Source: Bolinopsis microptera (taxonomy: Eukaryota; Ctenophora; Tentaculata; Lobata; Bolinopsidae). Taken from it: a stretch of DNA of 64,000 bases. Below the pieces are notes generated by a model. It was not told the origin of the DNA. It ran no database searches and was given only the letters and a program-made list of their open reading frames with translations. The stretch is from contig NC_087072.1 of the NCBI RefSeq assembly GCF_026151205.1, positions 14,732,169-14,796,168 on the forward strand, in the 5' to 3' direction. Positions 6,641-44,000 of the stretch are shown piece by piece (the first letter of the stretch is position 1; each line of letters starts with the position of its first letter). Made by a program: the position numbers and the translations under genes.

Positions 6641-6717
6641 GTTCATTGCATGTTTGTTGTTCTTTTTTCAGCTCAATTATTAGTTGTAATTGGCGTGCCC
6701 ACAGGGGGGCTGAAACC

Positions 6718-6930: not shown

Positions 6931-7198
6931 TACTGGGCCGCGCTCAGCCTGTCATTCCGCCTAATCTCTATTTACCAACATTAAAGCCTGGGGTCCTCAG
7001 GTAACGAAAACCTGGTTTCAACTCCCCTTGTGTGCCGGGTAACGCCAATGCCAAACGCGCGGCGATATTGCCAAGCTTCTGTTTTATGAGAGAAGCGAGC
7101 AATAAACAAGCACATGTACATATTAAGCTAGGTAAACATTTCCCTTTTGAGCCAGGGGACACTTATATTTTTAACGATACGAACGTATTATATATAGC

Positions 7199-7860: not shown

Positions 7861-7869
7861 AAAAGTTAA

Positions 7870-10800
7870 TTGACGATAATAATTTTTTTAGCTCGTAGTT
7901 CTGCTTCATAAAATTAAATCGATATGTTTGCTCTTGGGAATGAAATCAAAGGTATTTAAAATTTTAAAAAACTTTTTTAAGAAAGATCTGATTTCTAAAA
8001 GTATGATATGTTACAAATAATTGCTTTTTGGAATGTTTCTGATGAAGTTTCAGTAAGAACAAAGAATTTAGGGAGTCAGTTATAAAGCAATGAAAGGCAT
8101 TAGTTTAGTTAGAAAGGCATATGTCAGTAATAAAAACATGACGATAGTCAGCCCATGAATATTTTTTACACTAATGCTAATGGACTATTTAATAAAATTG
8201 ATGAACTAAAATGTATTCTATCAGTTTATAAATCCATTCATGTAATCTGCATTACAGAAACTCATTTTAATAGTGATATTTTAGATGCTGAAATTTTTAT
8301 TGAAGGTTTTAGTATGTTTCGAAAGGACAGAGATTTTAAAATCGATAACTCCACTAGCAACATAAGTGGAGGTGGAGGTTCTATTATTTATATTAAAAAC
8401 AGTTGTAATGCTTCATTAGTGAGCTCATTTTTAAAAGCACCAGATTCTTTAGCTATCAATGTCAATACCTCTGGTGGATTGATTAGTATTTGTTGTATTT
8501 ATAGGTCTACTTCTTTAACTTTAAATCTTTAAATTTAGAACAGAACAATATGTTATTATCTTGCATCAAGAGCATATCTAGTGAAAAGAATGTTTTTGAA
8601 ACTATTATCATAGGAGATTTTAACCTACCTAATGTATCTTGGGAAACTGGTAGTGTAAATAGTAGTATTTCTAGTAAGAATCAGGTTTTAATGATTCAAC
8701 AAAAGTATATTGATTTATTAAATGACAGTGGTTTGATGTGGTACTTTACTAACGAAACAACCAGAAGACGGCTTGTGAAAGATACTCTCCAGGAGAGTCT
8801 TCTTGATCAGGTTTTGTATACAAATGATGCTCTTGTCAACGGTTGTTAGATCGTTTCTCCGCTTGGCAAGAGTGATCATGTTGGGATACTTGTCGAACTG
8901 GTCGTTTCGCCCAACACTAACAAAAGTCCCAAACAAAAGATTTTGAAGCCTATTTGGGGTAAGATTTCCTCAGAGGAGTTATTTAACTTTAGTATGAATA
9001 ATATTGACTGGGATTATAGTTGTACAAATAATGTCCAAGATATGTGGGTTGAACTACATGGTAAATTGGAGTCTGTTGCTGCAGCTGTCCCAGCTGCTTC
9101 GGTTTATCTCGACAACAGACCTGCCAAGTTGCCATGGAGTACAACTTCACTTAAAAGAATGAGGAAGAACAAGGACAAAGCATGGGCTGAATTTGATATT
9201 AATCCTTCGAATATTAACTTGAGCTGTGCAAATAGCAAGCAGCATATTTTTGAGGTGGCAGAAATTAAAGCTAAAGTAAATTATGAAAAGAAGATTACAT
9301 CTAATCTAAAACAGAATTGTAAATCTTTTTACTCGTATTTGCGTAATAAACGACAAGTGAAATCAAGTGTTGTTTCTTTAGATAGAGGAGATGGTACACG
9401 CACAGATAGTTCATCTGAGTCAGCTGAGGTACTTGCTAGTGCCTTTAGTTCTGTGTTTGTGCGTGAACCACCTGGCCCTCTCCCTAAAAATGAGAGTTTA
9501 AGTTATAACAAAGAGGTTATTGATGATATGGAAATTAGCAGTTCTGATATCAAGAAGCAGCTTTTAAAGCTTAATGTTTTTAAGAGTTCTGGTCCGGATG
9601 GCGTTCATCCAAAGTTGTTGAAATCCTTAGCATACGATGAAATGTTTGTTGAAGCTGTTACTTAATTATTTGTTAAATGTTCAGAAACAGGAGTCCTGCC
9701 TGACATTTGGAAGACAGCATCTGTTGTAGCATTGTTAAAAAAGGGTGTTAAATCTGATCCCTTAAATTATAGACCTGTCTCATTAACTTGTATTTTGTGC
9801 AAAGTGTATGAAAAGTTAGTGAGGGCACATTTATTAACATTTTTAGAAGAACGAATTTCAAAGCATCAGCATGGATTTGTGAAGGGTAAATCTTGTCTAT
9901 CTAATCTTTTAGAGACATTTGATAATATTCTCGATATTTTAGACGAAGGTGCTCCTGTCGATCTTTTGTATTTTGATTTTAGTAAGGCTTTTGACACAGT
10001 CCCCCACTTTAGACTTCTATCTAAATTGGAGGGGTTTGGGGTCAAGGGAAAAGTTCTAGATGTTATAAAAGACTTTCTGACAGACAGAACCATGAGGGTT
10101 TGTGTAGAAGGACAATGGTCTGAGGTGAAACACGTGTTATCTGGTGTTCCCCAGGGGTCAGTATTGGGTCCTTTGCTATTTATTCTTTATATAAACGATT
10201 TACCTGACAATGTTAAAAATAAGATTAAATTATTTGCAGATGATCTCAAGTTAGTTTGTAATGCAGCTAACCATAGAAGTGTATCTGATGATATTTTAGA
10301 ACTCGAAATTTGGGAGAGTTTTTGGCACTTAAACTTCAATCCTGCCAAGTGTAAAGTAGTTCATATTAATCTGAATAATAATCCTAACTCGAATTATAAT
10401 GTAAATGGAGTGGAACTAGAAGTATCTGCACAGGAAAAAGATTTGGGGGTTATTACCCATAGCTCCTTGCTTTGGAATGAACAGATAAAAGCATGTATTT
10501 CTAAAGCAAATCGTATGATCTGCTGGATTGTAAGGAACTTAGTTATTAGAGAAAAGGTTGTAATGATATCTATTTATAAAGCTTTGATAAGACCTCATCT
10601 TGAGTATTGTGTCCAATTGTGGAATCCAGTTGCGGCTCATGGAAGTTGGGGGACTGTTTTGGAGCTGGAGAGCGTCCAGAGGCGGTTTACCCGTCTTATT
10701 GATGAGGTGGGTACTCTTCCATACAGCCGTAGACTGGATATACTCAATTTGACAACGCTGGCAGAGCGGCGAATACGTGGGGACCTTATTGAAGCTTTTA

Positions 10801-20000: not shown

Positions 20001-23000
20001 TCAAATGTGACGTAATAGTTGAGTTGTTGTAACATAAGATAGCCAATTAAGACTTAATTTATGAAACGTGATACCCATCATCAAGTTTATCTTACTAGCG
20101 ACCAAGAAATATATTGTCCTATGCCAAGTCATTCACCTGGTAACTTCTATTTTAATTTTAACTGGATCTAATTAGGTCTAACTAGAATCTAACTAGTAAT
20201 TTAAAAGTTTTGAATTTATCAGGCTGCTTAAAACGACTAGAACAATCGTAAAACTAAGTCAAAACTTAATGTTAATGTTCAGCGAGAAAAAGTATCCAAA
20301 TTTAGTTTGTCGTTGAATTTAAAATTTAACTAATTAAGCTTGGATTCGTAATCATAAACTTATCACAACATCAGTAGAATAATATTGCAATTAACATTAT
20401 GATTTTTAAATAGATTTGTCCCTCTGAAGTTTTCCTTATTCCAGAGCTTTGAAAGTGGTTAAATTATTTCGGATAGTACAAATGAGAATGCTCTAAGTGT
20501 TTTTTTTCCTTTGGTTAAACATACAATATTTGCTGAAAACAAAAGTGTTACAATTTCCAGCTCAGCTTATTTATTTTAATATTCTCAAATTTAACAAGAT
20601 TCTGTCATCAAACCGTCATTTCGAGCATCAAACCGTCGTTTCGTGCTCAACCAGGCTTCTTGTATTTTCGTAGAATGAAACTTCTGGCTCTGAAAAATAT
20701 TCGTTAAAGACTTTTTTATTCACTATTTGGTCGTGTCAAAATATAAAAATGGAAATAAATGTGATCATAGTTGAAGTTCAAATGCATAAAATGGGGACAG
20801 TTAATAGTTATCGTGAATCATTAAACCTAAGCTATGAGATATCAAAATTCTAAATTACAGTTTAATTCCATCACATTCAACTTCGTACCTAATGCTGAGA
20901 GTGGCAAGGGCAAATAAAACCGGAGATGCAATGAAAGATGTGTTGCAAAGTGAGCAAACATATGAAGCCTTGCCCGGAGAAACGACCGAAAACTTGGGAC
21001 CGCTAGGCAATAAATAAAGAAATTGCCCATTATATACAAATGAGAACACACGATACCCCCTCTGTAAAGTACAGCGCTAGTAGACGTATCAAACTCCCCC
21101 ATGGTGGATATAGTGTTTGGAATAATGGTAACCAGAAACAAACACGCGGTGAGTATGACAGTTAAAATGCTACTGCGTGGATCTGTAGCCCCGACCCGTC
21201 TAGCACTTTTACCCGCTTTACACAGCTGATGTATCAACAGAGATGTTGTTGCTAATATGACTGCAAGCGGACTGTAACAAAACGTGATCATAACTGTGTC
21301 CATAAACAATGATCTCGAGGAGAAATTGTAATCGCATGTGTAACCTCTGAAGTCGAAATAGGTATCATTCTTGTCTACAATGAAGAACGTAACTGGCACA
21401 CTTAAAGAATAAGTCCAAATAATTGCAGTTACTTTGATATGGAACTTTCTTCTAACAAGATGTGTCGCTCTAAAAGGATACTGTAGGATGAGGAGCCGGC
21501 TTGTTGTCATCGCACAAACGAACAATAAGCTCGCCGTATAAACATAGTTGTGGAACACAACAAGAAAATTGAGAATAATCTTGTGCGAGGGTAGGGACCC
21601 AGATGTCGTTTCTAACACAAATAAACTTTAAGGAGGCTTCTCATCAGTAGCCGCACCTCCTTACTCGGTTTCTGAATTGGAATTCTATGGGCTTCCAGAC
21701 GGCCAGACCGAGTATTACCACCCCATCCTTCTAGAGTTCATCACAAGTAGCACCCACCTTGAAGATCTTTGACACCCAGACACACCCCATTGGCGAACAA
21801 ACTTTGGATATAATCTTACATGCTCCCGAAGGAATCCCTGGTTTATGGTCTTTCTCATCGTCACCAGCACTTTCACTAGAGTCACCAGCCCTTTCACTGG
21901 AGTCATCAGCCCAATCACTGAAGTATACAGAAGTATAGTTGTGGAACACAACAATAAAATTGAGAATAATCTTGTGCGAGGGTAGGGACCCAGATGTCGT
22001 TTCTAACCCAAATAAACTTTAAGGAGGCTTCTCATCAGTAGCCGCACCTCCTTACTCGGTTTCTGAACTGGAATTCTATGGGCTTCCAGACGGCCAGACC
22101 GAGTATTACCACCCCATCCTTCTAGAGTTCATCACAAGTAGCACCCACCTTGAAGATCTTTGACACCCAGACACACCCCATTGGCGAACAAACTTTGGAT
22201 ATAATCTTACATGCTCCCGAAGGAATCCCTGGTTTATGGTCTTTCTCGTCGTCACCAGCACTTTCACTAGAGTCACCAGCCCTTTCACTGGAGTCATCAG
22301 CCCAATCACTGAAGTATACAGAAGTATAGTTGTGGAACACAACAAGAAAATTGAGAATAATCTTGTGCGAGGGTAGGGACCCAGATGTCGTTTCTAACCC
22401 AAATAAACTTTAAGGAGGCTTCTCATCAGTAGCCGCACCTCCATACTCGGTTTCTGAACTGGAATTCTATGGGCTTCCAGACGGCCAGACCGAGTATTAC
22501 CACCCCATCCTTCTAGAGTTCATCACAAGTAGCACCCACCTTGAAGATCTTTGACACCCAGACACACCCCATTGGCGAACAAACTTTGGATATAATCTTA
22601 CATGCTCCCGAAGGAATCCCTGGTTTATGGTCTTTCTCATCGTCACCAGCACTTTCACTAGAGTCACCAGCCCTTTCACTGGAGTCATCAGCCCAATCAC
22701 TGAAGTATACAGAAGTATAGTTGTGGAACACAACAAGAAAATTGAGAATAATCTTGTGCGAGGGTAGGGACCCAGATGTCGTTTCTAACCCAAATAAACT
22801 TTAAGGAGGCTTCTCATCAGTAGCCGCACCTCCTTACTCGGTTTCTGAACTGGAATTCTATGGGCTTCCAGACGGCCAGACCGAGTATTACCACCCCATC
22901 CTTCTAGAGTTCATCACAAGTAGCACCCACCTTGAAGATCTTGGACACCCAGACACACCCCATTGGCGAACAAACTTTGGATATAATCTTACATGCTCCC

Positions 23001-26000
23001 GAAGGAATCCCTGGTTTATGGTCTTTCTCATCGTCACCAGCACTTTCACTAGAGTCACCAGCCCTTTCACTGGAGTCATCAGCACAATCACTGAAGTATA
23101 CAGAAGTATAGTTGTGGAACACAACAAGAAAATTGAGAATAATCTTGTGCGAGGGTAGGGACCCAGATGTCGTTTCTAACCCAAATAAACTTTAAGGAGG
23201 CTTCTCATCAGTAGCCGCACCTCCTTACTCGGTTTCTGAACTGGAATTCTATGGGCTTCCAGACGGCCAGACCGAGTATTACCACCCCATCCTTCTAGAG
23301 TTCATCACAAGTAGCACCCACCTTGAAGATCTTTGACACCCAGACACACCCCATTGGCGAACAAACTTTGGATATAATCTTACATGCTCCCGAAGGAATC
23401 CCTGGTTTATGGTCTTTCTCATCGTCACCAGCACTTTCACTAGAGTCACCAGCCCTTTCACTGGAGTCATCAGCCCAATCACTGAAGTATACAGAAGTAT
23501 AGTTGTGGAACACAACAAGAAAATTGAGAATAATCTTGTGCGAGGGTAGGGACCCAGATGTCGTTTCTAACCCAAATAAACTTTAAGGAGGCTTCTCATC
23601 AGTAGCCGCACCTCCTTACTCGGTTTCTGAACTGGAATTCTATGGGCTTCCAGACGGCCAGACCGAGTATTACCACCCCATCCTTCTAGAGTTCATCACA
23701 AGTAGCACCCACCTTGAAGATCTTGGACACCCAGACACACCCCATTGGCGAACAAACTTTGGATATAATCTTACATGCTCCCGAAGGAATCCCTGGTTTA
23801 TGGTCTTTCTCATCGTCACCAGCACTTTCACTAGAGTCACCAGCCCTTTCACTGGAGTCATCAGCCCAATCACTGAAGTATACAGAAGTATAGTTGTGGA
23901 ACACAACAAGAAAATTGAGAATAATCTTGTGCGAGGGTAGGGACCCAGATGTCGTTTCTAACCCAAATAAACTTTAAGGAGGCTTCTCATCAGTAGCCGC
24001 ACCTCCTTACTCGGTTTCTGAACTGGAATTCTATGGGCTTCCAGACGGCCAGACCGAGTATTACCACCCCATCCTTCTAGAGTTCATCACAAGTAGCACC
24101 CACCTTGAAGATCTTTGACACCCAGACACACCCCATTGGCGAACAAACTTTGGATATAATCTTACATGCTCCCGAAGGAATCCCTGGTTTATGGTCTTTC
24201 TCATCGTCACCAGCACTTTCACTAGAGTCACCAGCCCTTTCACTGGAGTCATCAGCCCAATCACTGAAGTATACAGAAGTATAGTTGTGGAACACAACAA
24301 GAAAATTGAGAATAATCTTGTGCGAGGGTAGGGACCCAGATGTCGTTTCTAACCCAAATAAACTTTAAGGAGGCTTCTCATCAGTAGCCGCACCTCCTTA
24401 CTCGGTTTCTGAACTGGAATTCTATGGGCTTCCAGACGGCCAGACCGAGTATTACCACCCCATCCTTCTAGAGTTCATCACAAGTAGCACCCACCTTGAA
24501 GATCTTGGACACCCAGACACACCCCATTGGCGAACAAACTTTGGATATAATCTTACATGCTCCCGAAGGAATCCCTGGTTTATGGTCTTTCTCATCGTCA
24601 CCAGCACTTTCACTAGAGTCACCAGCCCTTTCACTGGAGTCATCAGCCCAATCACTGAAGTATACAGAAGTATAGTTGTGGAACACAACAAGAAAATTGA
24701 GAATAATCTTGTGCAATGGTAGGGACCCAGATGTCGTTTCTAACCCAAATAAACTTTAAGGAGGCTTCTCATCAGTAGCCGCACCTCCTTACTCGGTTTC
24801 TGAACTGGAATTCTATGGGCTTCCAGACGGCCAGACCGAGTATTACCACCCCATCCTTCTAGAGTTCATCACAAGTAGCACCCACCTTGAAGATCTTTGA
24901 CACCCAGACACACCCCATTGGCGAACAAACTTTGGATATAATCTTACATGCTCCCGAAGGAATCCCTGGTTTATGGTCTTTCTCATCGTCACCAGCACTT
25001 TCACTAGAGTCACCAGCCCTTTCACTGGAGTCATCAGCCCAATCACTGAAGTATACAGAAGTATAGTTGTGGAACACAACAAGAAAATTGAGAATAATCT
25101 TGTGCGAGGGTAGGGACCCAGATGTCGTTTCTAACCCAAATAAACTTTAAGGAGGCTTCTCATCAGTAGCCGCACCTCCTTACTCGGTTTCTGAACTGGA
25201 ATTCTATGGGCTTCCAGACGGCCAGACCGAGTATTACCACCCCATCCTTCTAGAGTTCATCACAAGTAGCACCCACCTTGAAGATCTTTGACACCCAGAC
25301 ACACCCCATTGGCGAACAAACTTTGGATATAATCTTACATGCTCCCGAAGGAATCCCTGGTTTATGGTCTTTCTCATCGTCACCAGCACTTTCACTAGAG
25401 TCACCAGCCCTTTCACTGGAGTCATCAGCCCAATCACTGAAGTATACAGAAGTATAGTTGTGGAACACAACAAGAAAATTGAGAATAATCTTGTGCGAGG
25501 GTAGGGACCCAGATGTCGTTTCTAACCCAAATAAACTTTAAGGAGGCTTCTCATCAGTAGCCGCACCTCCTTACTCGGTTTCTGAACTGGAATTCTATGG
25601 GCTTCCAGACGGCCAGACCGAGTATTACCACCCCATCCTTCTAGAGTTCATCACAAGTAGCACCCACCTTGAAGATCTTTGACACCCAGACACACCCCAT
25701 TGGCGAACAAACTTTGGATATAATCTTACATGCTCCCGAAGGAATCCCTGGTTTATGGTCTTTCTCATCGTCACCAGCACTTTCACTAGAGTCACCAGCC
25801 CTTTCACTGGAGTCATCAGCCCAATCACTGAAGTATACAGAAGTATAGTTGTGGAACACAACAAGAAAATTGAGAATAATCTTGTGCGAGGGTAGGGACC
25901 CAGATGTCGTTTCTAACCCAAATAAACTTTAAGGAGGCTTCTCATCAGTAGCCGCACCTCCTTACTCGGTTTCTGAACTGGAATTCTATGGGCTTCCAGA

Positions 26001-29000
26001 CGGCCAGACCGAGTATTACCACCCCATCCTTCTAGAGTTCATCACAAGTAGCACCCACCTTGAAGATCTTGGACACCCAGACACACCCCATTGGCGAACA
26101 AACTTTGGATATAATCTTACATGCTCCCGAAGGAATCCCTGGTTTATGGTCTTTCTCATCGTCACCAGCACTTTCACTAGAGTCACCAGCCCTTTCACTG
26201 GAGTCATCAGCCCAATCACTGAAGTATACAGAAGTATAGTTGTGGAACACAACAAGAAAATTGAGAATAATCTTGTGCGAGGGTAGGGACCCAGATGTCG
26301 TTTCTAACCCAAATAAACTTTAAGGAGGCTTCTCATCAGTAGCCGCACCTCCTTACTCGGTTTCTGAACTGGAATTCTATGGGCTTCCAGACGGCCAGAC
26401 CGAGTATTACCACCCCATCCTTCTAGAGTTCATCACAAGTAGTATCCAAATTTAGTTTGTCGTTGAATTTAAAATTTAACTAATTAAGCTTGGATTCGTA
26501 ATCATAAACTTATCACAACATCAGTAGAATAATATTGCAATTAACATTATGATTTTTAAATAGATTTGTCCCTCTGAAGTTTTCCTTATTCCAGAGCTTT
26601 GAAAGTGGTTAAATTATTTCGGATAGTACAAATGAGAATGCTCTAAGTGTTTTTTTCCTTTGGTTAAACATACAATATTTGCTGAAAACAAAAGTGTTAC
26701 AATTTCCAGCTCAGCTTATTTATTTTAATATTCTCAAATTTAACAAGATTCTGTCATCAAACCGTCATTTCGAGCATCAAACCGTCGTTTCGTGCTCAAC
26801 CAGGCTTCTTGTATTTTCGTAGAATGAAACTTCTGGCTCTGAAAAATATTCGTTAAAGACTTTTTTATTCACTATTTGGTCGTGTCAAAATATAAAAATG
26901 GAAATAAATGTGATCATAGTTGTCTGGTAAAATTAAGACACTTCCAAAGCTCACTCAAAATAGTGGTTTAAATTCTGAACTTAAGTTAACCTCCAGTTGA
27001 CAGCTTCAGCACTTACAGTCTTTATCGCAATTATACGATTCTATAAATTATAGATTTTTGTCAGGAGTTGACAGTTGGAAGATTGGATTGATTTATAAAT
27101 TCTTCCGTCAGTTAAGCAGTCATCTGTAGCAAGCACTTAAGATTTTAGATTAGATCAATTATTATAGACGATGGGAGTTTTTTCCGACAAGAATAATCCT
27201 CAATTTGCCTTAAACATTATACATAATGTAACCGTTGTTTCAATCATCAGCCTTGTAGATAAGTAGCGAGTTCTTGAAAAAATTGTGTCATGGTACTAAA
27301 TCGTTTGTTTAGTAGATCTGTACTAGGGTTATATCCGAACTAGAGCTATATAATAGTTAGTTGTATGTAAAAACTCGTTAGCTGATATTATTACACATTT
27401 TGTCTTCTGAATTCCTTGCATGTTAATTGTACTGGATCCTACTCTTACAGCTTTACAGATATCTTTCATTTAAGAAACATTCTCTAGAAACATTTCATCT
27501 GTTGTTGTTATTTGTGCATTGAGAAGAAGTAATCCCGAATCACATACCAAAGAAATATGATGTCTGATGGGACACCTGCTTCATACCCGAACCAATCTAT
27601 CCCCTACATCAACTACCAGCTCCCTCCTTACAGCACAGCTGCTCTCATCATCTGGTCTCTGCTCACTGCTATCGTATCTCTGTCAGGAAACTCCATCATC
27701 CTCGTCGGCACGATAAAACACAACGCTATCAAACTCGACAAACTGTCCCTGGTCCTGATAAAGAACCTGGCGATATCTGACATTCTCAACACACTTTTAG
27801 TGGTGATTCCAGGTATGGTGACACTCCACGCCAGGGGCGCCCTCTTTCAGGACAACCTCCTCGTCTGCACCCTCTCCAGCTACCTCCAGTTTGTTGTACC
27901 CATCTTTAATTCCTTAGTTGTGTGCGCTTTGACTGTCAACAAACTGATGATCCTCTTGGATCCTCTGAAGACGCTTTCTGGTAGTGATATGACGGGGTAC
28001 TTTCTGGTGCTCGGAGCTTGGATCTGTGGCTTGGTTCCAGGGATCGAATATTTGATCATCAGAGAGAGGGAAATTGTTTTCGATACAAGAATATGCAGGT
28101 TTTTTAATTTTGTTAACAATATCTGACATCATATTTGATCACTTCATTATAAGTATGTAAATGTCCCGTAAAGTCATTTAAAGCTTTCATTATTTCTGTT
28201 CATGAACAAAAATCTGCTATATATATATATTTATCAGGTGCATATCAAAGTGGACAAAATCTTCCAAACAAAACCTGTGGATGATCCTAGACAACATCAC
28301 ATCCATTCTCTTCGTCTTAATTCCCTTTATTGTCATCTTCGTCGTCACCATCGGGATACTCTCGTTCCTCAAAAAGAACAGCACCTTACAAAAACAAAAG
28401 ATTGCACTGGTCTTGAGTGTGTCCATCCTCCACCTCATTTCCTTTGTTCCTTACCTCCTCTACACCGTCTTGATGAACGTCATGAAACCAAGCGCTGAAG
28501 TTAAATACAGAAACAGCACAGTTGCACAGTTGTATGCTGGTGCTAGCTACGTTAACTACCTTAACACCATGTGCAATCCTATTCTGTATTATTTCACCAG
28601 CGCTAGTTTTGGTGCTTACATCAGGAGATGCACCAAGAATTGGATGGGGAGGATTGGTAGAGTTGGAGATGGAGAGATGCAGAATACTGGCACTACAAGT
28701 GTGGGTGAGAGGTATTCTATAAACAGAGCGTGATTGCTGTCCACTCAAACATTTCAAGTGAGAAGGACTCTATAAACAGAGCGTGATTGCAGTCCACTCA
28801 AACATTTCAAGTGAGAAGGACTCTATAAACAGAGCGTGATTGCAGTCCACTCAAACATTTCAAGTGAGAAGGACTCTATAAACAGAGCGTGATTGCTGTC
28901 CACTCAAACATTTCAAGTGAGAAGAACTCTATAAACAGAGTGTGATTGCTGTCCACTCAAACATTTCAAGTGAGAAGGACTCTATAAACAGAGCGTGATT

Positions 29001-32000
29001 GCTGTCCACTCAAACATTTCAAGTGAGAATGGTAGAATTTTTGTGTAAAGCTTTAGGACTATCGTTATCATTTCTTTTTCTAAGACTTTGTGTATTTTAC
29101 ATAGCCATTTTGTATTTGATATTACAATGCAAATTGCAATGTTTAGTATCGTCTATTCACAATATATTTTTACAATCCTTTCAATATCATTTTTAATTTT
29201 TACGTACTGGTCATTGGTCAATGGTCATAAATAATGAACAACCATACCATAATAGCACAATCTTGGCATATATTAATTTAATTAAGCCACTATAATGCCT
29301 AAATACAGGTTAAGCCGCTTGAGCCTTAGGGGCGGAATTTTAATGAGATGTTATGACGTTTTGACTTGGTTACCAAAGCACGACATGGTGTGCGACCGTA
29401 CAATAAAGTAACATAGTGATGGTTAATAGACTTAGGTTGGTTTTGTGGTAGTCCAAAGTCCAATATTCAAATCTGTCCATTAAATTCTGTGTTGAGTTGT
29501 TTCTAAATCAGTAATGGTGATGACAACTTTCGATGAAACCGCTGACCATTTTGCCCAAATATGTCCGCCTGTTCCCATTCTTCTTTAATATCCGTCATTA
29601 GCTCGATCTTAGCTACGACCAGTAAAGGTGAGCTTTCTATTCTTCCAGAAGATGCAGTTGAATTGATCTAGTCGAGAATTAGCTCATGTCTAAATCATAA
29701 TCAATGTAATATGAAGGATTACCAGCAGATCTGTACAGATCCCAAGGACAATTATAAGCATACTTGCAGTTGGTAGATGTTTGTTGGACATCAACTGATC
29801 AACTTACTAAACCGCGCATGCATTTTCGACGCGGTTTGCCTTGCTACAGTAATTTGGTATGTGATTCTTTTCTGGGCGCGAAATGAGTTCATGAATCCGA
29901 GATTTTGGAACAATTTTGGAACAGTGAGACAGAATTGAGACAGAATTGAGACAACTTTGGAACAGGCTTTTGGGGCAGTAGTTATGCCTGGGTTGACTTA
30001 AAATCTATATGGTATGGTGGAGGGGTATGTTTACTAACATGTTCAGCCACTCAGAAGTGCCAAATGATCCCCTGGTTCATGAAATGAACGAAATGAACAA
30101 AAATGAACTTTACCCTAAAATCGCCTAAACTGAGTTGAAACCGATCAGAGTCTGTTGGTATTGATACCAGGAGTGTCCATGAAAAGTTTGGTGGCCCTAG
30201 CAAGCTCAGAAAAGGCTCTGGGGGCAATGTTCCATTTTGGTTTCAGAGTAGTTGGGATTCTGGAACAGAATTGAGACAACTTTGAGACAGGCTTTTGGGG
30301 CAGTAGTTATGCCTGGGTTGACTTAAAATCTATCTGGTATGGTGGAGGGGTATGTTTACTAACATGTTCAGCCGCTCAGAAGTGCCAAATGATCCCCTGG
30401 TTCATGAAATGAACGAAATGAACGAAAATGAACTTTACCCTAAAATCGCCTAAACTGAGTTGAAACCGATCAGAGTCTGTTGGTATTGATACCAGGAGTG
30501 TCCATGAAAAGTTTGGCGGCCCTAGCAAGCTCAGAAAAGGCTCTGGGGGCAATGTTCCATTTTGGTTTCAGAGTAGTTGGGATTCTGGAACAGAATTGAG
30601 ACAACTTTGAGACAGGCTTTTGGGGCAGTAGTTATGCCTGGGTTGACTTAAAATCTATCTGGTATGGTGGAGGGGTATGTTTACTAACATGTTCAGCCAC
30701 TCAGAAGTGCCAAATGATCCCCTGGTTCATGAAATGAACGAAATGAACGAAAATGAACTTTACCCTAAAATCGCCTAAACTGAGTTGAAACCGATCAGAG
30801 TCTGTTGGTATTGATACCAGGAGTGTCCATGAAAAGTTTGGTGGCCCTAGCAAGCTCAGAAAAGGCTCTGGGGGCAATGTTCCATTTTGGTTTCAGAGTA
30901 GTTGGGATTCTGGAACAGAATTGAGACAACTTTGAGACAGGCTTTTGGGGCAGTAGTTATGCCTGGGTTGACTTAAAATCTATCTGGTATGGTGGAGGGG
31001 TATGTTTACTAACATGTTCAGCCACTCAGAAGTGCCAAATGATCCCCTGGTTCATGAAATGAACGAAATGAACGAAAATGAACTTTACCCTAAAATCGCC
31101 TAAACTGAGTTGAAACCGATCAGAGTCTGTTGGTATTGATACCAGGAGTGTCCATGAAAAGTTTGGCGGCCCTAGCAAGCTCAGAAAAGGCTCTGGGGGC
31201 AATGTTCCATTTTGGTTTCAGAGTAGTTGGGATTCTGGAACAGAATTGAGACAACTTTGAGACAGGCTTTTGGGGCAGTAGTTATGCCTGGGTTGACTTA
31301 AAATCTATCTGGTATGGTGGAGGGGTATGTTTACTAACATGTTCAGCCACTCAGAAGTGCCAAATGATCCCCTGGTTCATGAAATGAACGAAATGAACAA
31401 AAATGAACTTTACCCTAAAATCGCCTAAACTGAGTTGAAACCGATCAGAGTCTGTTGGTATTGATACCAGGAGTGTCCATGAAAAGTTTGGTGGCCCTAG
31501 CAAGCTCAGAAAAGGCTCTGGGGGCAATGTTCCATTTTGGTTTCAGAGTAGTTGGGATTCTGGAACAGAATTGAGACAACTTTGAGACAGGCTTTTGGGG
31601 CAGTAGTTATGCCTGGGTTGACTTAAAATCTATCTGGTATGGTGGAGGGGTATGTTTACTAACATGTTCAGCCACTCAGAAGTGCCAAATGATCCCCTGG
31701 TTCATGAAATGAACGAAATGAACGAAAATGAACTTTACCCTAAAATCGCCTAAACTGAGTTGAAACCGATCAGAGTCTGTTGGTATTGATACCAGGAGTG
31801 TCCATGAAAAGTTTGGTGGCCCTAGCAAGCTCAGAAAAGGCTCTGGGGGTAATGTTCCATTTTGGTTTCAGAGTAGTTGGGATTCTGGAACAGAATTGAG
31901 ACAACTTTGAGACAGGCTTTTGGGGCAGTAGTTATGCCTGGGTTGACTTAAAATCTATCTGGTATGGTGGAGGGGTATGTTTACTAACATGTTCAGCCAC

Positions 32001-35000
32001 TCAGAAGTGCCAAATGATCCCCTGGTTCATGAAATGAACGAAATGAACGAAAATGAACTTTACCCTAAAATCGCCTAAACTGAGTTGAAACCGATCAGAG
32101 TCTGTTGGTATTGATACCAGGAGTGTCCATGAAAAGTTTGGCGGCCCTAGCAAGCTCAGAAAAGGCTCTGGGGGCAATGTTCCATTTTGGTTTCAGAGTA
32201 GTTGGGATTCTGGAACAGAATTGAGACAACTTTGAGACAGGCTTTTGGGGCAGTAGTTATGCCTGGGTTGACTTAAAATCTATCTGGTATGGTGGAGGGG
32301 TATGTTTACTAACATGTTCAGCCACTCAGAAGTGCCAAATGATCCCCTGGTTCATGAAATGAACGAAATGAACAAAAATGAACTTTACCCTAAAATCGCC
32401 TAAACTGAGTTGAAACCGATCAGAGTCTGTTGGTATTGATACCAGGAGTGTCCATGAAAAGTTTGGTGGCCCTAGCAAGCTCAGAAAAGGCTCTGGGGGC
32501 AATGTTCCATTTTGGTTTCAGAGTAGTTGGGATTCTGGAACAGAATTGAGACAACTTTGAGACAGGCTTTTGGGGCAGTAGTTATGCCTGGGTTGACTTA
32601 AAATCTATCTGGTATGGTGGAGGGGTATGTTTACTAACATGTTCAGCCACTCAGAAGTGCCAAATGATCCCCTGGTTCATGAAATGAACGAAATGAACGA
32701 AAATGAACTTTACCCTAAAATCGCCTAAACTGAGTTGAAACCGATCAGAGTCTGTTGGTATTGATACCAGGAGTGTCCATGAAAAGTTTGGTGGCCCTAG
32801 CAAGCTCAGAAAAGGCTCTGGGGGCAATGTTCCATTTTGGTTTCAGAGTAGTTGGGATTCTGGAACAGAATTGAGACAACTTTGAGACAGGCTTTTGGGG
32901 CAGTAGTTATGCCTGGGTTGACTTAAAATCTATCTGGTATGGTGGAGGGGTATGTTTACTAACATAAATGTTCTATTTTGGTTTCTGGAACAGAATTTTG
33001 GAACAGAATTGAGATCAACTGATCTGGTATGGTGGAGGGGTAAGTGTGCAGCCCTAGCCGTAGTTATTGACGTCGAATAGAGAAGTGACATAATGAGCTA
33101 ACAGTTTAATATCATTTATAAACATAAATATACAAAAACACTCCAATTCAACGTCTGGCACGTTTGGGAGCGTTTAGAGGCTCACTATCACTCCTCATTC
33201 TCTTGCCCTGTGCAGGTTGTATCACTCCGAATTGATGTGAACTGCATAGGTGCCATTTGAGAGTGATGTGATCTAAGCCTTTTTGCAAATGTGAACTGCA
33301 TAGGTGATCTATGCCCTTCTGCAAGTGATGTGAACTGCGTAGGTGCAATTTGCTTATTGTTTGCGCCACCGGACGAAGGGGTTTATAATTATTAGATGTC
33401 GATGCGCTTTCTGTCCAGGCAGTACAGAAAGCGTTAGTAGGTGAACATCGGCCATCATCAATACCACATGCCATAAGAACACGAACTTCGGCCCTCGTTA
33501 ATACCGCATGCCATAAGAACACGCCCATCGGGCCTGTCTTTGACTATTTCCAGCAGTACAGTTACCTTAGTAGATGAACATAAGCCCTCATTTATACCAC
33601 GTGCCATAAGAATACGAACATAGGCCCTCGTTAATACGACATGCCATAATAACACGAACATCGGCCCTCGTTAATACCACATTCCATAAGAACACGAACA
33701 ACGGCCCTAATTAATACCACATGATCTGTTCGTGACGTGAACTGTTCGATAAATACCACATGCCATTAGAACACGAACAACAGCCCTAATTAATACCACA
33801 TGATCTGTTCATGACGTGAGCTGTTCGATGAAAACCACATGCCATAAGAACACGAACAGCGGCCCTAGTTAATACCACACGATCTGTTTGAATGACGTGA
33901 ACTGTACAATTACAAGATCCGATCAGAGAATGATCACGTGCATGATGCTTACTTGAGCAGCATCAGCTTGTTATCCCTGTCACCGGACGAAGGGGTATAA
34001 AGGATATCACGACGAGGATCATTCATCTTACCCACCATCTTTACAGCTTTCACTACAACATCTCAGACAGTTACAACACGAAAGCACCTACCCCTTATTC
34101 CTTAGTCAGGAACGTAGTTTACTACTACTTCTTCGACCCTTCTTCCTTGCTCGGAAACGTAGCTTTCTGCTACTTTCTGTTTGACAACACACCCTACATA
34201 CCCTCCTCCTTAGGTCGGTAACGTATCTCTCTGCTACCCCCTGTCCTCCATCACTTGTCGGATCGATGGATCGACAGCTCATCACATCTTACATTGACCT
34301 TATTCGTGGTTCACATAGCTTAGGTTCCGTATTTGGCATTTATTTCCATGACATTAAGGACGAATTACCTCCTCTTGCATATGATTATTCTGATGACCTC
34401 ACAGTATGTTCCTCTGTAGTTCTTAGGCTAGAATGTGGAAATTATGTATTCGTATCTGAGTTAGCCCGAGGGACCCCTCTGTAAGATTATTCTGTGGCTC
34501 AAATGTTCAAATGATTTATCCTCTGTTAACTGAATATAAGACATTCTTTAGACATTTCTTTCCAGCGAAACATACGTTAGAAGTTTACGAAGGTTTTAAT
34601 CAGAGTAGTCTTGATAAGGATGGTTCTATTTATTCGCTGTTGTCGTTATATAGTTGTATTATCACTGATAGAGCCATCAAGTTTAACCTTCTTGAGTCCC
34701 AAAATCTCCACAATGAAATCGTTTCGAGTTTTAGACGTTCAGTAGATTCGAATCAATTGTTGAAATTTTTACAGACAATCTTTCTTCCGGTAGATAAGAT
34801 TAGGCCAGATGTATTGTATTCTGTCATAATTTTCACAACAGCAGAAATGTTGGATTTAAAAAAATCCAAGGATGCAGCAGCTCGTGAGGCTTTCAAGAAG
34901 AAGCTTCAGACTCAGTCAGCTAAGCAGCAAGCTGAACCGTCGTTGACAGATTCCGACGATGATTTTGAGCAACCACCCAAGTATAGATGCTCTGATCAGG

Positions 35001-38000
35001 CTGGCCCGAAACAGTTCGATAAAACCTCTGAACTTCCAAAGTTCTCTAGTTTTAAGAGAGCAGATCCAGCTGTTTCGAAGAGCCGTCTAGATTCGATTAA
35101 GAAACTAGCCTCGATTTCGGTGAATGACTTGCCTTCTGTGATTAACTCGACTTCAGTGATTGATCCTGGTCAATCCTCAGTTCAGATTTCTGCTGGGGTT
35201 GGTGGGGAACAGTCAGTCGGTCATGATCAGTCTTCGAGTTCTTCCACTGATGTTCGGGATCAACCTGTTGCTTCTCCTCCTGACGAGCTAGATCAGGACC
35301 TATCCACGAATCCTCCCTTTGGTTCTGTGCAACATATAGAAAACGTTCTTAAAACCGATGATGTTGATTCTTTGAAGTCTTACAAACGTGAAATGACTTG
35401 TAGAAATTTATCTTGTATTAGAGTGAAAACGACTCGTGTACTTCATTTTCATTGCTTGTTGTGTAAGTCGTACTCATACCGTGATTTTAAGAGAGTAGTT
35501 ACGCATATGTTAAAATGTTCTGCCGGGCGAAGTTTTATAACAGCCCCATCTTTGTCCTCGACTTCAGTGATTGATTCGACTCCAGTGATTGATTCGACTC
35601 CAGTGATTGATCCTAGTCAGCCCTCAGTTCAGATTTCTGCTGGGGTTAATGGGGAACAGTCAGTCGGTCATGATCAGTCTTCGAGTTCTTCCACTGATGT
35701 GCGGGATCAGCATGTTGGTTCGTCCACTGCTGAGGTTGATCGAGATCAGCATGTTGCTTTTTCTCAACCCAGAGTATGCTGGGATACGTCTGCAAATTGC
35801 ATTGTTATGGCTTCTAGTGGTAAGAGGAAGCACTATCATTGTCCAGTTTGCGACAAGTCCCACGCATCTCTTTGTCGAATGAATGATCACATTGGTCTGT
35901 GTAGAATCAGAGTAGAATCGTCTGGAAGTGCTCGCCCCGGCAAGGCCGATACCACAAAATTGCTTCAGGCGGAGCTTATTTGTCCATCATCAGGTACGTA
36001 TCTTGTTAGGCGGTGCGCCCAGGGGCCCGCTAGTCCAGTTCATGTAGTTCATAATAAGAATGGTTGGGAGTGTACCGCACCTCTTTGTCGTGATTTTTAC
36101 AACTTCCACAACGGTAGCTTAAATCCAGGTTTTTTGTGTCAACACGTACTAGCTTGTGTAAACCGTAACCTCAATGTTCAGCCAGATTTAATTGATAGTG
36201 TTCTTACATACGATAGTTTTGGTGATGATGATAAGAATCTCATAATGGCTTTTTGTAAAACAGCTAGGGATTTCGGTCTTCCGGTCATCAAGCAGTACAT
36301 TCCCACTATGGTAGATATATGCAGTACTTCTCGATATATCTACTATAGTGTGTTTGCTGGTGATGAGAAGCCGAAATACTACAGTAAGTTAGGGCGTGTA
36401 ATAGTTACTTATGATAGGTGTAGTAAAACACATAAATGTGAGTGTGGCATCAAATCTTGTCTTCATCGGAAAGTTGCAGTTCTCGCATCAGAGATTAATC
36501 CGGTTATTGGTGAGTCACGCCCCGAGGATGACAGTGACCCCAATGAACTGATGTTTGCAGAAGCGATGATGCAATATGTACTAAAGAACAAAGTCATACC
36601 CTTTGACGTGACTGGATTTAAGGATCACTCACCAAAGGCGGAGTTTGCTCCGATTGAAACAAAGTGTCACAAATGTACTGATGTTGATCTTGTAACCTTT
36701 GACGTGAGCAACCGTGGCTGTATATTCACCATGCATGAAAAGAAAACAGGTGTTAAAGTTGTCACTAAGAATTGTCCTATTTGCTCCATGAGGTATAGAT
36801 ATGCCGAGTATTCAGAAGGTTATTTCAATTTTAATAATAATTCATTTTTCTCTATTTCTCTGATGGAAGTTGCTCTCGCAGCTTGGATCAAGAACACTTC
36901 GTTGACTGCTTTTTTTGAGATAATGTCAGTTATGACCGACGTTAAATACAACATCCACCTCTTACTTGACGCTGTTAAAGCATACATGGCCTTAAAGGAT
37001 TTGAATCTTGATAAAACTCTTAATTGTTATAGGTGTGGCCATTTTCCTGTTTATTTGACGTACGATGTAATAAGGAGTGTTTGTTTTGATGTTAAACCTG
37101 GTGAAGTAACTAACCATGAGTATTCTAGCTCTTCAGCAATGCATTTAAATTGTTCACAGCACAATCTATCTAGGTCATATCTTGATAAGAAATCTCCTCA
37201 TTACAGTAGCAATGTTAAGCACTTCTCCATGAAAAAAGGTCAGACTCTTCCACCTATTGTCAGTTCTAAAAATTTTAGTAGTATAGATCCATACACACGG
37301 CCCCTCCTTGCTAATGATAAAGCTGAAGAAATCAAACTGCCATTAGAACGCATAGAACAACTTGTGAATTCTACAAATTCATATAAGCAGCTTAAAGATA
37401 TTTGTAAGTCACTTGATATTGAAACACGTGGAGGCAAGAGCCACATGGTTGCACGTCTTATAGACCTAGAAGGTAATACCCAACTTTATTCAGTAGTTCG
37501 CAAGAATTTTACCAAGCTCACTGGAAAATCTGGAGGTGTCTTACGAGCATTCTGTCCCCATGGTGTGTGCTATGGTATTAAGTTCCTTACAATGCCCGAA
37601 TCAGTGGCCGACTATGCTAACCTTATAACTTCGTTTCAAGTTCAACCTAGCTTTAATTTTTCCGACATAGCAACGACTTGGGGCAATCACATGGAAGGAA
37701 ATTATCCAGGTTTTTGTAGACCATACCGGGGTCGTTTAGGTGACCCCGAGTGCCCAAAGTCGGAAATGTACAAAGATGGTCGTAAAACAGCTATATTTAA
37801 TCATAACACATACACTACCTGCCAGCTTGATATAAGTAGTTACGACCACACTTCAGTTCATCCTATAAGCTTACTTCCATCTGTTCTAATGTTGTTTGAC
37901 ATCTTCCATGAGTCCAATCAAACTTTAGTCGACACGTACTTAAGGTCTGTTAAATGTACTAATCTAGGAGCCTATTTAAATACGTCAGTAGTAGAACAGC

Positions 38001-41000
38001 AGAACCACGTCCTTGCGCTCACAAAAAGTTTTTGCAATGAGATGAGTCCTGAACAGCACATATTGTTTGTATCGTATCTTACTAGTGTCCACAACAAGAA
38101 GATAAACGATGCTTGGAAAAGTCGAGTTGAGAAAAATGTTGGAGAAGAGTGTGTGGTAGATGAGTTGGGATTTCTAGTCCGGAAGGGTGTTGAAAAAACG
38201 TCTTCAAATTCAACCCGTTTTGACACTCCTTCAACGAGTGACTTGAAATCTCCTCACCCGCTGCCTCTTCTGCAAGATCCCTCTTCTGATTCGTCAGCCC
38301 TTAACTCTGTTGTTTATGCGGTGTCATTAAGTAGTATAGGTGAACCTATACTTGATGAGGAGACTTGTTTATGCCACGAACTGCTTTCTTTTGTCTGTGG
38401 CAAGACCCCCTACAACCAGTTAGTACATTTTAGGATGAAGAAGAAGATCGATAAGAAAATTTCAGATGTAAGCGGTTCGACATCCGACCCCTGCTCGATC
38501 TTTTCTATCTGTTTTCTTCCTGATCTGAAGAAGCTTGGTGTACTGCTGATAGAATCTAAAGCAACCTCTTTAAATATGGGAATCGGTCTAGATAATTGCT
38601 TGCAATCTCAGAATTCCATGGTAGACTTCATTGTTCTTACTCAGCCTGATGATGATAAGTATTTTAATGGCGTTTGTTCACATTTTGATGTCTCTTATTT
38701 TGATAGCCAGGTGAGGTTCGAAACTGTTGCATACATAGCTAAGTCCGGCCAATCTATCTATTCAGGCTTTGTTCGTATTGGCGACAATTTTTATGAAATG
38801 ACCAACAGTAAATGTAATCTACTTTCTGAGCACGCCTTTCTTGAGTTTGCTCGCTCAGCCTGCCTAGTAATATTTAAACTTAGTACACCTTTAAGTAAGA
38901 AGCCTGTAAATATTCCTGTAAACATTCCTGAAGTAGAAAGTAAGAAACCTGTCAACGTCTTTGAGTTTGAACCTTTGTCAGGGATGAAAAGAGCTGCTCC
39001 CTCAAAAGTACAAATTAAGAGGAAGAAAGTAAAGATGGGTCCGGGTCACACTACAAGACCCGTAAGTAAAACGTGGCAAAGCTGCTCAGATACTGGTAGG
39101 TTAGATTTGTATTCAGAGCAGTTTCGTATTTGCCAGTCCGCCACTTCCTGGTATGATGATATTGTTATTAATTCGTACGCCCTCATGTGCCAGTTCAATC
39201 GTTCCAATTCTTTTGTATATCAAGATACCCTTTTAGGAAGTCGTTATTCGTTAAATGGTTTTAGTCCCGTTGATGGTAAGTTTATTCAAATAGTTAATCC
39301 TAACAATAACCACTGGTTTTGCCTTTCCAACGCCCTTACATTCGTTAGAGAGCCACACGTAGTAGAGATATTCGATTCATTAAGAACCCCTCAGTCTTTA
39401 GAAACATGCATGATTATAGATAGATGTATTAGCAGTCAAATTTTACAACTGAGACCACAGACAACAGTCGTTAGATTTGTACAAACTCAAAGTCAAGGTA
39501 ATGGGTATGACTGTGGGCCTTTGGCGCTTGGATTCCTTTGGTCCCTATCTCACGGCCACCATCCCTTAAAGTTTCAACATCTCAAAGGACCGACGATTCG
39601 TAGACAGGTAAGAGAAAGTTTTAGAGATAACAAATTTTTAGCTCCATGCCCGTACAAGCGTCCTGATTTGACTCCTAAGAAAATCCTTAGAACTTTCACC
39701 TTAGAACTTCACTCCAACAGGTTTGTATTTAACAACAGTTTGTATCAGTAACTAATATGGTTAAATTATTTGTAATGATTAACCTTACATCATTATTGTT
39801 ATCGATGTATATGAACATTAATTTATGAGTGAATATGATTCAAATTATTTGAGTGAAACGATTTTGGTTTGCACTGAAGAAATCCGACAATCCTAATCGT
39901 CCTAATCCTAATCCTAATCCTAATCGTCTCTTCATTCCTCAAGTTCCCCTGATCTATCCTAGCACTAAACTACCCATTACCTGGACATATTATTATCACG
40001 AACCTAATCCTTACCTGGACAAATTATTGTCATCCTTACCTGGACAAATTACTGTCATCCTTACCTGGACAAATTATTGTCATCCTTACCTGGACAAATT
40101 ATTGTCATCCTTACCTGGAACTGCTGTATCCTTCCCTAGTATGTAACAGTTTATTTACCTGAAACTACTCCTTATCTGGAAGTCCTCGTTATATAGCTTT
40201 ATAGTACTTCCCCTGGAACTTCAACATCTCCTACTACAGCTGGAACTTACATGTCATACCTACAACTTCTCCTTCCCTAACATTGCTACATACCTAAAAC
40301 TTCTCCTTCCCTAACATTGCTACATACCTAAAACTTCTCCTTCCCTAACATTGCTACATACCTAAAACTTCTCCTTCCCTAACATTGCTACATACCTAAA
40401 ACTTCTCCTTCCCTAACATTGCTACATACCTAAAACTTCTCCTTCCCTAACATTGCTACATACCTGTAACTGCTACAATTTGCTATTTGCGTTAAATTAT
40501 TATTATTGAATTTTGATTCATGTCTGATTATTGATTTATATGATTCGGATCTGATTAAAAACAATGAAAAAGCTGTCTTATTTTAATCGAAATAATTACA
40601 AACAATTAAAATGAAATAAGAATAAATAACAAAATAAAATATTACCTAATATATAATAACTCAGAAATGTTGACAATGTAGAAAATATAATGTGACACCG
40701 AAAATCACTATAATGTGTACACGCTGTCAAATGTGATTAGCTGTGTACACTGTACCTGTTCATAGGAATTTCTCTGATTGCTTGAAATGTAAGAATAAAT
40801 GAAGTCATTCAGTGAGGGACAACAACTAAAATTGAACAGTACTGCAGTAGGTATAGATGTGGATACTGGCGGGGAGGTGATCATTGTTTGTTTACATTAA
40901 TAGGGAACACATGTTCAGGAGGCTGAGGAGGTGATCATTGTTTGTTTACATTTTAGGTGGAACACATGTTCAGGAGGCTGAGGAGGTGTTACATATTTTG

Positions 41001-44000
41001 TATTATAGAAGGCTTGTAACACATGTAACGCCTTCTTGTTACCCCCCTTTGAGGACCCCGAATTATTTTCTGAACGAAAGCTCAAAAATAACCGAGAAAT
41101 CGACCTTCTTATTAACTCATTTTGATGACCGTTTCTAACCTAAAATTGCACGAAAAATCGATTTAGCTAGGTTTCAGAACCTATAAACACTTCCTTATTC
41201 CTCAAAATCGATGTTTTATAGTTTAGAATGCAAGCAACAAGCAACATATATTTTGATCCTTCGGTTCTACAGCTCTTGACCTAGGGCTGAAACCGAAAGA
41301 TCGAGGCAATCCTAACCTTAACTGATCGAACTTGAGCGAAGAGCAGAGTACGACAAAACACAGCAGGTAAGCATCTCATTTTTGTGACTGTTTCTCACCT
41401 GTACAACGTTGCACGAGAAATCGATTAAAGTTGGTTTTACAGCCCAATAACGCTTCCTTTTTCCTCAAAATTGTTGTGTTACTCAAACAAAGAACATGTT
41501 GATTCAGAAAATAATTCGGGGTCCTCAAAGGGGGGTAACAAGAAGGCGTTACATGTGTTACAAGCCTTCTATAATACAAAATATGTAACACCTCCTCAGC
41601 CTCCTGAACATGTGTTCCACCTAAAATGTAAACAAACAATGATCACCTCCTCAGCCTCCTGAACATGTGTTCCCTATTAATGTAAACAAACAATGATCAC
41701 CTCCCCGCCAGTATCCACATCTATAGTACTAGATAATCGCATATAAAAGGAGTTGGCAAGATGGTGTAGAATTCTAGAGAACAGTAGATGGGACACAGCT
41801 TATTTACTACATAAACCGTACGGTTAAAATTGTATACATGCTAGACCCACCAAACTTCCCAGGGACACTTCTGATATAAAATATAAATACCAATCGATTC
41901 CAGCTCAATTCGTGGGAATTTAGGATAATGTTGATTTTTTGTTCATTTCGTTCATTCCATGAACCAGGGGAATATTTCGCACTTCTAAGTGACTGGAAAT
42001 GTTAGTACACATGCCCCTCTACCATACCAGATCGATTCCATGTTAGTCCAGGCATAATTACCGCTAAAAAGCATGTTTCTAAAAATGTTTCCAAAATCTT
42101 AACTACTGCTCAGAAACCAAAATGAAAATATTGCCCAGAGCCCTTTCTGAACGAGCTGGACCCACCAAACTTCCCGGGGACACTCCTGGTATCAATAGCA
42201 ATCGATCCTAATCGGTTTCAGCTCAGTCCAGGACATTCTGAGACAATGTTCATTTTTTGTTCATTTCATTCATTCCATGAATTCGATAAATATTTCAAAA
42301 CTAGCTGGAAATGTCAGTACACATGCCATCCTATCATACCAGAGCAAATTCATCTTAGTTTACGGACAAATACAGCAAAAAAACATCGATAAAAAGTTGT
42401 CTCAAACTGTTCCAAAATCTCGGATTCATCTTCTGCGCGAAATCCGAACGACATAGAATTAATTAAAGGGCTCCTATTTTCGCGCGCGTGAGTTAAATTA
42501 GACGACGCGACGGACGCGATATCGTCGCGTGTCAATCAAGTATCATGTCAATGTTGGATTGAGTTTCCTCGATTATCGCCAATTTAATTACAAACTACCG
42601 AAATGCATACATCGTATCTTTGACTAGTGCTTGGTGGTATAATACTTTGGTGAGTCTTCCTGTACCAACCCAGTTATTTTCGTCACGACAAGTTGATTGA
42701 TGATTTTCATTCCTACAGGACGAGATTGACGACGCTGACGGCAACTGCGTGATTGAAGACATAGAAGTCGAGGAGGATGAGACAGAGGAACCACCCCAGA
42801 CAGACCACAAGGATTTGGTTCTGGAGATGACAGCCGACATTCCTTTCGTTATAGACTCTCCTGAACATCTTACAGAGTTAAATGCATTGGTGTCTGGACA
42901 GAGCGACTCTAACGTGGAGGCAATTATTAAGAGAATCGTAGCTTCAAACCATCCGACCTTGAAAGAGGAGAACAAGGCTAAAACCGCTACGTTTTATGTC
43001 GTGCTTATTAAGTATCTTGTCAGCAAATATGGGGAGGGTAAACTTTCAAAGAATGTTCTGGACGTATCTTGTAAAGCACTGTTTTCAGTTACCAAGCATG
43101 TTCAGAAAGAGATTTATAAGCATTTCTTCGATGTTTTGAATTCACTGAAGCATCTCGTCGCGAAAAACACTGGCAAATCTTTGAGTGCAGTCTTCAGCAA
43201 GCGTTATGTTATCTATCTGTACATTCTACAGAGAATTTACCCAGTAACGGACTACAAACATCCAGTATTAACGCCAGTACTCATGTCAATAAACTGGGCC
43301 CTCTCAGCCTGTTCTGTCAAGAAATTGACGGATTTGAAAGTAGGTGTGTTTTTGTGTGGCTTTGTGTTGCAGTGCTCTAAAGGAAGGTATTCTCCAGAGG
43401 TCATCTACTTTCTGACTCAAGTTTTAAGATGTTTGGCTACAGCGACCTCTGCAAAAAGCCAGGAATATGTCAGCAATTTCAAGATCAGGCCAGATGGCTT
43501 GGCTGACAACACAAAACCGGGAAAGTTGTCGATCAGTCAGTTATATGACAATCATACCTCGAAATCAGATGTCATATATGCTTTGTTAATGATCACAAGG
43601 ACTGCAATGCGAAACGCTAACGACTTCACTGGGTTCAGCGGAGTATTTCATCCTCTTGTAGAATCCCTGAAACATGTGCAGGCTGAACAGTGGCACACTG
43701 ATATCCAGTCCTTCATCACATCTCTCACTGCTTCATACGACCAATACTCTCAGAAAATAATGCCTTTCCTACGGTATCAAAACATTAAGCCCGTTTCAAT
43801 CAAAATGTACGAACCTAAATTCGGAGATGTCTTTGTGAGAGACAGGAAGGACAAGGATGAGACCAAATATTTGAAGAAGAAGATTAAGACTGAGATGAAG
43901 GGAGCTATCCGCGAGATTAGAAAGGATAACAAGTTTATCAGCCGTGTGAAACACAAGGAGCAAGAGAGTTCTGATAAGGCGAGGAAACGTAAGGTCAACG

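Follow-up and report, generated by a model that had tools for sequence, protein, structure and literature searches.

A long open reading frame for a transposase-like protein in Bolinopsis microptera is bordered on its left by a homogeneous satellite-like array of 325-bp units, and on its right by two diverged units, one of them partial, in the opposite orientation. This arrangement raises the question of whether the repeats are the ends of a transposon or a satellite into which one has fallen, and how two such unequal ends came about. A preliminary description of the window (the whole 64,000-nucleotide stretch analysed here, C1:14732169-14796168) had proposed a Zisupton-like transposon with the arrays as its end regions, one of which expanded after insertion. 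It had also proposed looking for further copies to define termini and target duplications, and a search of the genome (264.65 Mb, 232 contigs) yielded copies that set the limits of the element (Table 1). The locus is indeed a transposon, with the same 8 bp duplicated on both sides and a distinct tip at each end, which we call A (left) and B (right). The outer sequence said to be common to both ends is real, but the element runs on for another 8 bp outside GAATCC at either end, and the tips differ in their first six bases (GAGTTC at A, CAGAAG at B) before a common inverted ATGAATCCGAG.

Table 1. Features of the transposon in the window (positions are those of the window)
Feature	Position	Strand	Basis or remark
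Left target-site duplication, CGCGAAAT	29877..29884	.	Exact 8-bp match to 42436-42443
Element, 12,551 bp	29885-42435		Ends set by comparison with other copies
A tip, GAGTTCATGAATCCGAG (left end, read inwards)	29885..29901	+	
A-end array, 9.3 units of 325 bp, 99% match	29940..32965	+	TRF
Upstream coding part, ~65 conserved N-terminal codons	34266..34460 (end approximate)	+	Frame comparison with C2 copy and longer relatives
Main ORF, 1746 codons, KDZ-like transposase	34511..39751	+	
SWIM-like CxCx4CxH motif	36437..36466	+	C643, C645, C650 and H652 invariant in 19 aligned proteins
CxC4 cysteine cluster, residues 710-806	36638..36928	+	PF18717, E 2.5e-8
Probable DDE core (D852, D1052, E1162) with inserted SAP domain	37064..37996	+	
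Ulp1-type/C48 cysteine protease domain, residues 1595-1709	39293..39637	+	PF02902, E 5.5e-6
Nested insertion, 865 bp	40857..41721	.	Perfect 223-bp inverted arms, TATAG duplicated; missing from C2 copy
B-end units: partial (41835-42081) and outermost B1 (42091-42380)	41835..42380	-	nhmmer with unit profile
B tip, CAGAAGATGAATCCGAG (right end, read inwards)	42419..42435	-	
Right target-site duplication, CGCGAAAT	42436..42443	.	

Identifying the two tips allowed us to ask how they are paired across the genome. Exact matches number 34 for the A tip and 81 for the B tip, with none for the reversed-pattern control of either, and all of these 115 except one lie on contigs C1 to C13. Tips facing each other within 20 kb form 29 A/B pairs (481 bp to 15,769 bp) and nine B/B pairs (8.9-12.3 kb); A/A pairs of exact tips at this distance are absent genome-wide, and 39 of the 115 tips (5 A, 34 B) have no facing partner within 20 kb. 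Target duplications were read in 30 elements, namely the 29 exact A/B pairs and one with an inexact A tip (L026), and are perfect over 8 bp in 27 of them. The element at C10:11621303 has a single mismatch, and in that at C7:17274470 and in L026 the duplication is out of register, with common sequence appearing only after a shift. These 30 elements are members of multiplying families, so they do not amount to 30 independent trials of the A/B rule. The three B/B pairs that were inspected, out of nine, all carry the same inverted flank outside their tips for at least 36 bases per side (about 171 bp beyond the tips in the one pair read further), which argues that these three are parts of a larger repeat rather than simple insertions. 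A search with the single joined 20-base flank pattern found no empty site.

The coding region was also largely as first described. The 1,746-codon frame with its SWIM-like, SAP, KDZ-like and Ulp1 parts is present, but it is not the whole gene, as about 65 conserved codons lie upstream; in the window copy their frame differs from that of the main ORF, and in a second copy on C2 they are in frame. No fully intact coding copy was seen among those examined. The domains differ in the strength of their matches: the Pfam SWIM model does not match the ORF; the SAP match (residues about 936-1004, E 4.7e-4) falls below the curated cut-off; and profile matches to the Ulp1 region include the solved OtDUB (E 0.0006) and a ULP protease (E 0.0019). 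A fold model of the ORF was of middling quality (pLDDT 66.4), and Foldseek with this model gave no match at E <= 0.001 and no KDZ structure among the matches listed. A separate model of the DDE core was of poor quality.

To which transposons this protein is related was judged from 19 proteins, the window ORF and 18 relatives, scanned with Pfam at E <= 5 with HMMER filters on. The KDZ-associated cysteine clusters are well represented, with CxC4 in 17 of 19 (best E 3.8e-10) and CxC5 in seven (best E 3.2e-4). The KDZ transposase domain PF18758 matched none of the 19 under these settings; it had no match genome-wide either, and 14 control genomes were equally silent in the same search. The Pfam matches of the 19 contain no THAP or P-element family, which speaks against membership in the P superfamily, to which Galileo belongs. 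Zisupton elements are described with 8-bp target duplications (PMC12730594), the length found here. Kyakuja, whose fungal description gives 7-bp duplications, CA..TG termini and no TIRs (PMC12730594), does not match the 8-bp duplications or the tips seen here. With CxC4, the SWIM-like motif, SAP, Ulp1 and a probable DDE core, and no PF18758 match, the ORF appears to be KDZ/Zisupton-like, a term of likeness rather than of proven membership, and at that level the original assignment stands.

Two of the relatives are Mnemiopsis leidyi proteins. A profile of the 19 sequences found one clear further relative (P0020) and one marginal one (P0021) among the 7979 candidates sharing most words that were scored, and a search from the most distant relative listed 14 proteins including itself, the new ones being P0022 (40% identity) and the EukProt protein P0023 (33%). 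Neither search gave a bridge to canonical KDZ proteins, and a scan of viral contigs gave no relative. In the flanks of one relative on C8, 28% identical, lie a 201-bp tandem array and a tandem duplication of 1.26 kb; across the two 2.4-kb stretches read there, blastn gave no match to the window element, and the exact tip core is absent.

The terminal repeats follow the tips to other sites. Units resembling the 325-bp repeat occur in both orientations in 28 of the 30 elements, giving them the inverted ends of internal tandem repeats that define a foldback architecture. Seventeen elements were read from end to end, 16 of them exact A/B pairs and the other L026. Each has units facing both ways, with one to 13 matches at the A end and one to seven at the B end when partial ones are counted; rearrangement is visible in L023 and L026. 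The 13 others, some read at their ends only, have both orientations in 11 cases, and those at C7:18840499 and C9:8273481 have a single orientation in the stretches read. Taken together, the tip pairs, the 8-bp duplications and the two-orientation units establish that the arrays are part of the transposon. Many relatives have the same plan, so the repeats are a component of the mobile element rather than a neighbouring satellite.

Two patterns had been named beforehand as contrary to this result: transposase copies without the repeats, and arrays without the gene. Transposase-like sequence is present in at least six of the 29 A/B elements, a lower bound from 27 of 153 candidates scored, with three other elements read at their ends only, and all six carry units; they are the window element, C2:1177359, C2:2447336, C2:35765, C7:18840499 (C-terminal part) and C7:17274470 (a 48-residue N-terminal remnant). 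Gene-less arrays are common, yet they lie within tips, in the many short copies that retain tips and units and lack the gene. The exception is an orphan array of 13 units on C5 with an A-like end, for which the 14 kb read downstream hold no B end and no transposase match was found. Both comparisons cover in part the relatives at 25-28% identity, among them those at C8:15.00 Mb and C1:12.52 Mb.

The units themselves offer a clue to what the arrays may do. At each unit junction stands a repeat of the sequence that lies immediately inward of the tip. For the B tip region, the alignment to the unit spans 25-38 columns, with a score that no shuffle out of 100 reached in any of four elements, whereas for the A tip the likeness is weaker (1, 1, 0 and 1 of 100 shuffles in four elements); the shuffles were made by an approximate dinucleotide-keeping swap. 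Fifteen representative units, of which some are no more than ~70% alike, have a nearly invariant core in common, TCATGRAATGAAYGRAATGAAC followed by AAAAATGAA; the exceptions are a gap in the L032 unit and single changes in a few others. Because the tip-adjacent stretch recurs and the core is conserved, the units look like multiplied internal end sequences, and this likeness suggests, by analogy with Galileo, that they may be multiplied transposase-binding sites.

The question of asymmetry is best approached through the closest copy. This element (C2:1177359-1188474, 11,116 bp) has its own target duplication, AATTAATT, and differs from the window element by 1.0-1.8% substitutions in the blocks that align beyond the array. 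Its ends are likewise unequal, long at A and short at B, with ~7 A units against 9.3 in the window. Both arrays begin with the same distinct outermost unit, and further in they show copy-specific variant patterns recurring about every three units, from which it follows that the copies gained or lost blocks of units after their separation. With 9.3 units in one copy and ~7 in the other, in copy-specific block patterns, array length keeps changing. The same inequality is found in two larger, diverged relatives with a period of 349-350, at C2:35765 (13.3 kb, ~10 A units) and at C2:2447336 (15.8 kb, roughly 18 A units, 499 bp unread), each with two to three unit matches at the B end. It is not universal, as the A arrays of groups 2 and 4 are no longer than their B arrays.

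A tree of 142 units from 17 elements (FastTree, midpoint root, read from topology alone) separates the units by position. One clade gathers the outermost B unit from every one of the 17 elements, along with a single inner unit (L019_B5), and in groups 2-4 the A units and inner B units are intermixed within each subfamily. Mean within-element distances in the window group are 0.007 among A units and 0.294 between A and B units; in groups 2-4 the A-B mean is 0.085-0.097. Tree and distances together indicate that the outermost B unit has its own line of descent and that inner units are homogenised, between the two ends as well in groups 2-4.

There are possible alternative explanations for the arrays. 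Homogeneous tandem repeats are satellite-like, and the C5 array stands alone, so that a transposon landing beside or in a pre-existing satellite might be imagined; since the tips and duplications lie outside the array, and 28 of 30 elements, at different sites, carry similar units within their tips, a chance neighbouring satellite is rejected, and we give this reading practically no weight. Scarcely more credit goes to the view that a less asymmetric element expanded its left end after inserting at the window locus. Since the window and C2 copies parted, their A arrays have indeed changed, as that view would have it; the preliminary description is nevertheless not supported here, as the asymmetry was not made after the window insertion, being present in a near-identical copy at another locus with another duplication. 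Expansion after insertion is contradicted by the long-A/short-B state shared with the C2 copy, C2:35765 and C2:2447336. The separate clade formed by the outermost B units also speaks against it.

A stronger competitor, unlikely in our judgement, holds that the arrays are a tolerated by-product of slippage or unequal exchange without a role in transposition. Their wide range of lengths at both ends would fit, as would the persistence of the 13-unit orphan array; the smallest derivatives (481 and 534 bp) have fewer than two units and still inserted with clean duplications, so long arrays are dispensable for some insertions. Against it stand the units in two orientations in nearly all elements, the core motif kept between diverged unit families, and the homogeneous arrays kept by relatives whose units are only ~70% similar. 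We consider it likely that the locus holds a KDZ/Zisupton-like DNA transposon of 12.55 kb with ends of the Foldback style, whose arrays are predicted to be multiple transposase-binding sites turning over by recombination, slippage or gap repair. Such an element would move by cut and paste, with each unit repeating a transposase-recognised sequence found just inside the tip, and the multiple sites may add specificity and help to bring the ends together. Arrays would grow or shrink by those three routes, the A array and inner B units turning over and homogenising and the outermost B unit passing down on its own. A more specific version of this transposon reading, which we offer tentatively and hold to be somewhat short of an even chance, is a ctenophore KDZ-like lineage with a two-part end code, in which fixed, non-interchangeable A and B tips are combined with expandable binding-site arrays, homogenised both within each end and from one end to the other, and with an outermost B unit shielded from this exchange.

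Comparison with known systems places each half of this design. Among the matches listed in titles and abstract openings on KDZ/Zisupton, ctenophore transposons and foldback elements, a scope outside which the Bohne et al. 2012 Zisupton paper lies, we found no KDZ element with tandem-array ends and no combination of A/B tips, array ends and KDZ-like transposase. The window element resembles Zisupton and KDZ elements in its 8-bp duplications, a size of about 9-12 kb and the KDZ-associated cysteine cluster (PMC12730594, PMC12810828). KDZ1, for example, is described as about 11 kb with 241-bp TIRs and 8-bp duplications, and KDZ2 and KDZ3 with duplications of 4-8 bp (PMC12810828). It differs in that its ends are arrays, whereas the KDZ ends described so far are TIRs of 139-241 bp in the cited passages, which make no mention of tandem arrays (PMC12730594, PMC12810828), and in that PF18758 is undetected in its protein. 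Nematode and fish Zisupton elements are reported as multi-exonic (PMC9297572), unlike the one long ORF in the window.

Galileo, a P-superfamily element of Drosophila, is described with internally repetitive long TIRs, unequal repeat numbers within one copy and many gene-less copies (PMC3688188, PMC3573991), all features of the window family; from a footprinted site, the tandem repeats within its long TIRs were found to contain further transposase-binding sites (PMC3688188). Its transposase, however, is of the P superfamily with a THAP domain, a match absent from the window protein, and the window element has two differing tips and a separately inherited outermost B unit. The Tetris foldback element of Drosophila virilis likewise has tandem repeats of ~220 bp within its inverted ends, found also in longer satellite-like arrays (PMC4079207); it is apparently non-autonomous, whereas the window family has gene-bearing copies, none seen fully intact. 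Foldback-type arrays are thus already known from the P superfamily and the Foldback-like elements of flies, and the same design with a KDZ-like transposase in a ctenophore favours a common functional reason, many binding sites, over accident. It also offers a well-delimited case of satellite-like repeats growing within a mobile element, with many copy stages in one chromosome-scale genome. We read the window element as a Foldback-style KDZ-like transposon: its design is known, and the pairing of that design with a KDZ-like transposase and A/B tips appears to be new among the matches listed.

The window element carries a nested insertion (see the table), and because the near-identical copy on C2 lacks it, the empty site of this insertion is known. 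The target duplication GGGGCAGA is common to three elements, at C7:17277197 (L018), C10:3329077 and C12:11573467, and at the latter two the flanking bases are identical as well. The sharing of both duplication and flanks suggests that the target was a repeat, or that the segment had been duplicated.

Nine pairs of two B tips (the right end of the element) were counted in the genome, of which three were inspected (C9:2549661, C6:7632020 and C6:11225316). The pair at C9:2549661-2558605 (stretches L042, L035 and L043) bounds a 9-kb palindrome that is almost perfect. Its inverted symmetry extends for about 171 bp beyond the B-type tips, and inside it the N-terminal part of the KDZ-like ORF is present twice, in inverted orientation. 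Both C6 copies have at least 36 flanking bases in common with it.

Seven open stretches of 315 codons are confined to the C-terminal Ulp1 part of the KDZ-like ORF, and six of them are free of internal stops. Each has, at a distance of approximately 2-14 kb, an unpaired B tip, one with no other tip facing it within 20 kb. These are perhaps non-autonomous elements retaining the protease alone.

Nested insertion in the window element and Ulp1-only open stretches
Feature	Location	Details
Nested insertion	window 40857-41721	865 bp; perfect 223-bp inverted arms; TATAG duplicated
Ulp1-only stretch	C1:13206852	
Ulp1-only stretch	C1:13608233	
Ulp1-only stretch	C3:4396277	
Ulp1-only stretch	C6:4099593	
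Ulp1-only stretch	C6:6335306	
Ulp1-only stretch	C10:3625585	
Ulp1-only stretch	C13:13619020	

At C5:4785.3-4789.6 kb (L011) lies an orphan array with an A-like (left) end, whose 13 units are about 90% similar to the 325-bp window unit; no B end was found in the 14 kb downstream, nor does the array have a transposase match. Arrays of other periods were also observed. At C8:14998440-14999369 (L062), 4.7 units of 201 bp adjoin a gene related to the transposase at 28% identity, with an open frame of 1465 codons. In the element at C2:35765-49061 an 18-bp unit is repeated about 98 times (approximately 6668-8422 of the stretch starting at C2:35735), flanked by stretches matching the N-terminal part of the transposase; the window ORF has a shorter run of 18-bp repeats at 35558-35611. 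Finally, window positions 21544-26442 hold 12.5 units of a 391-bp period (99% match), with one and the same short tandem repeat, of a 20-bp unit, on either side (20606-20643 and 26755-26792); this array could be another mobile element bearing arrays.
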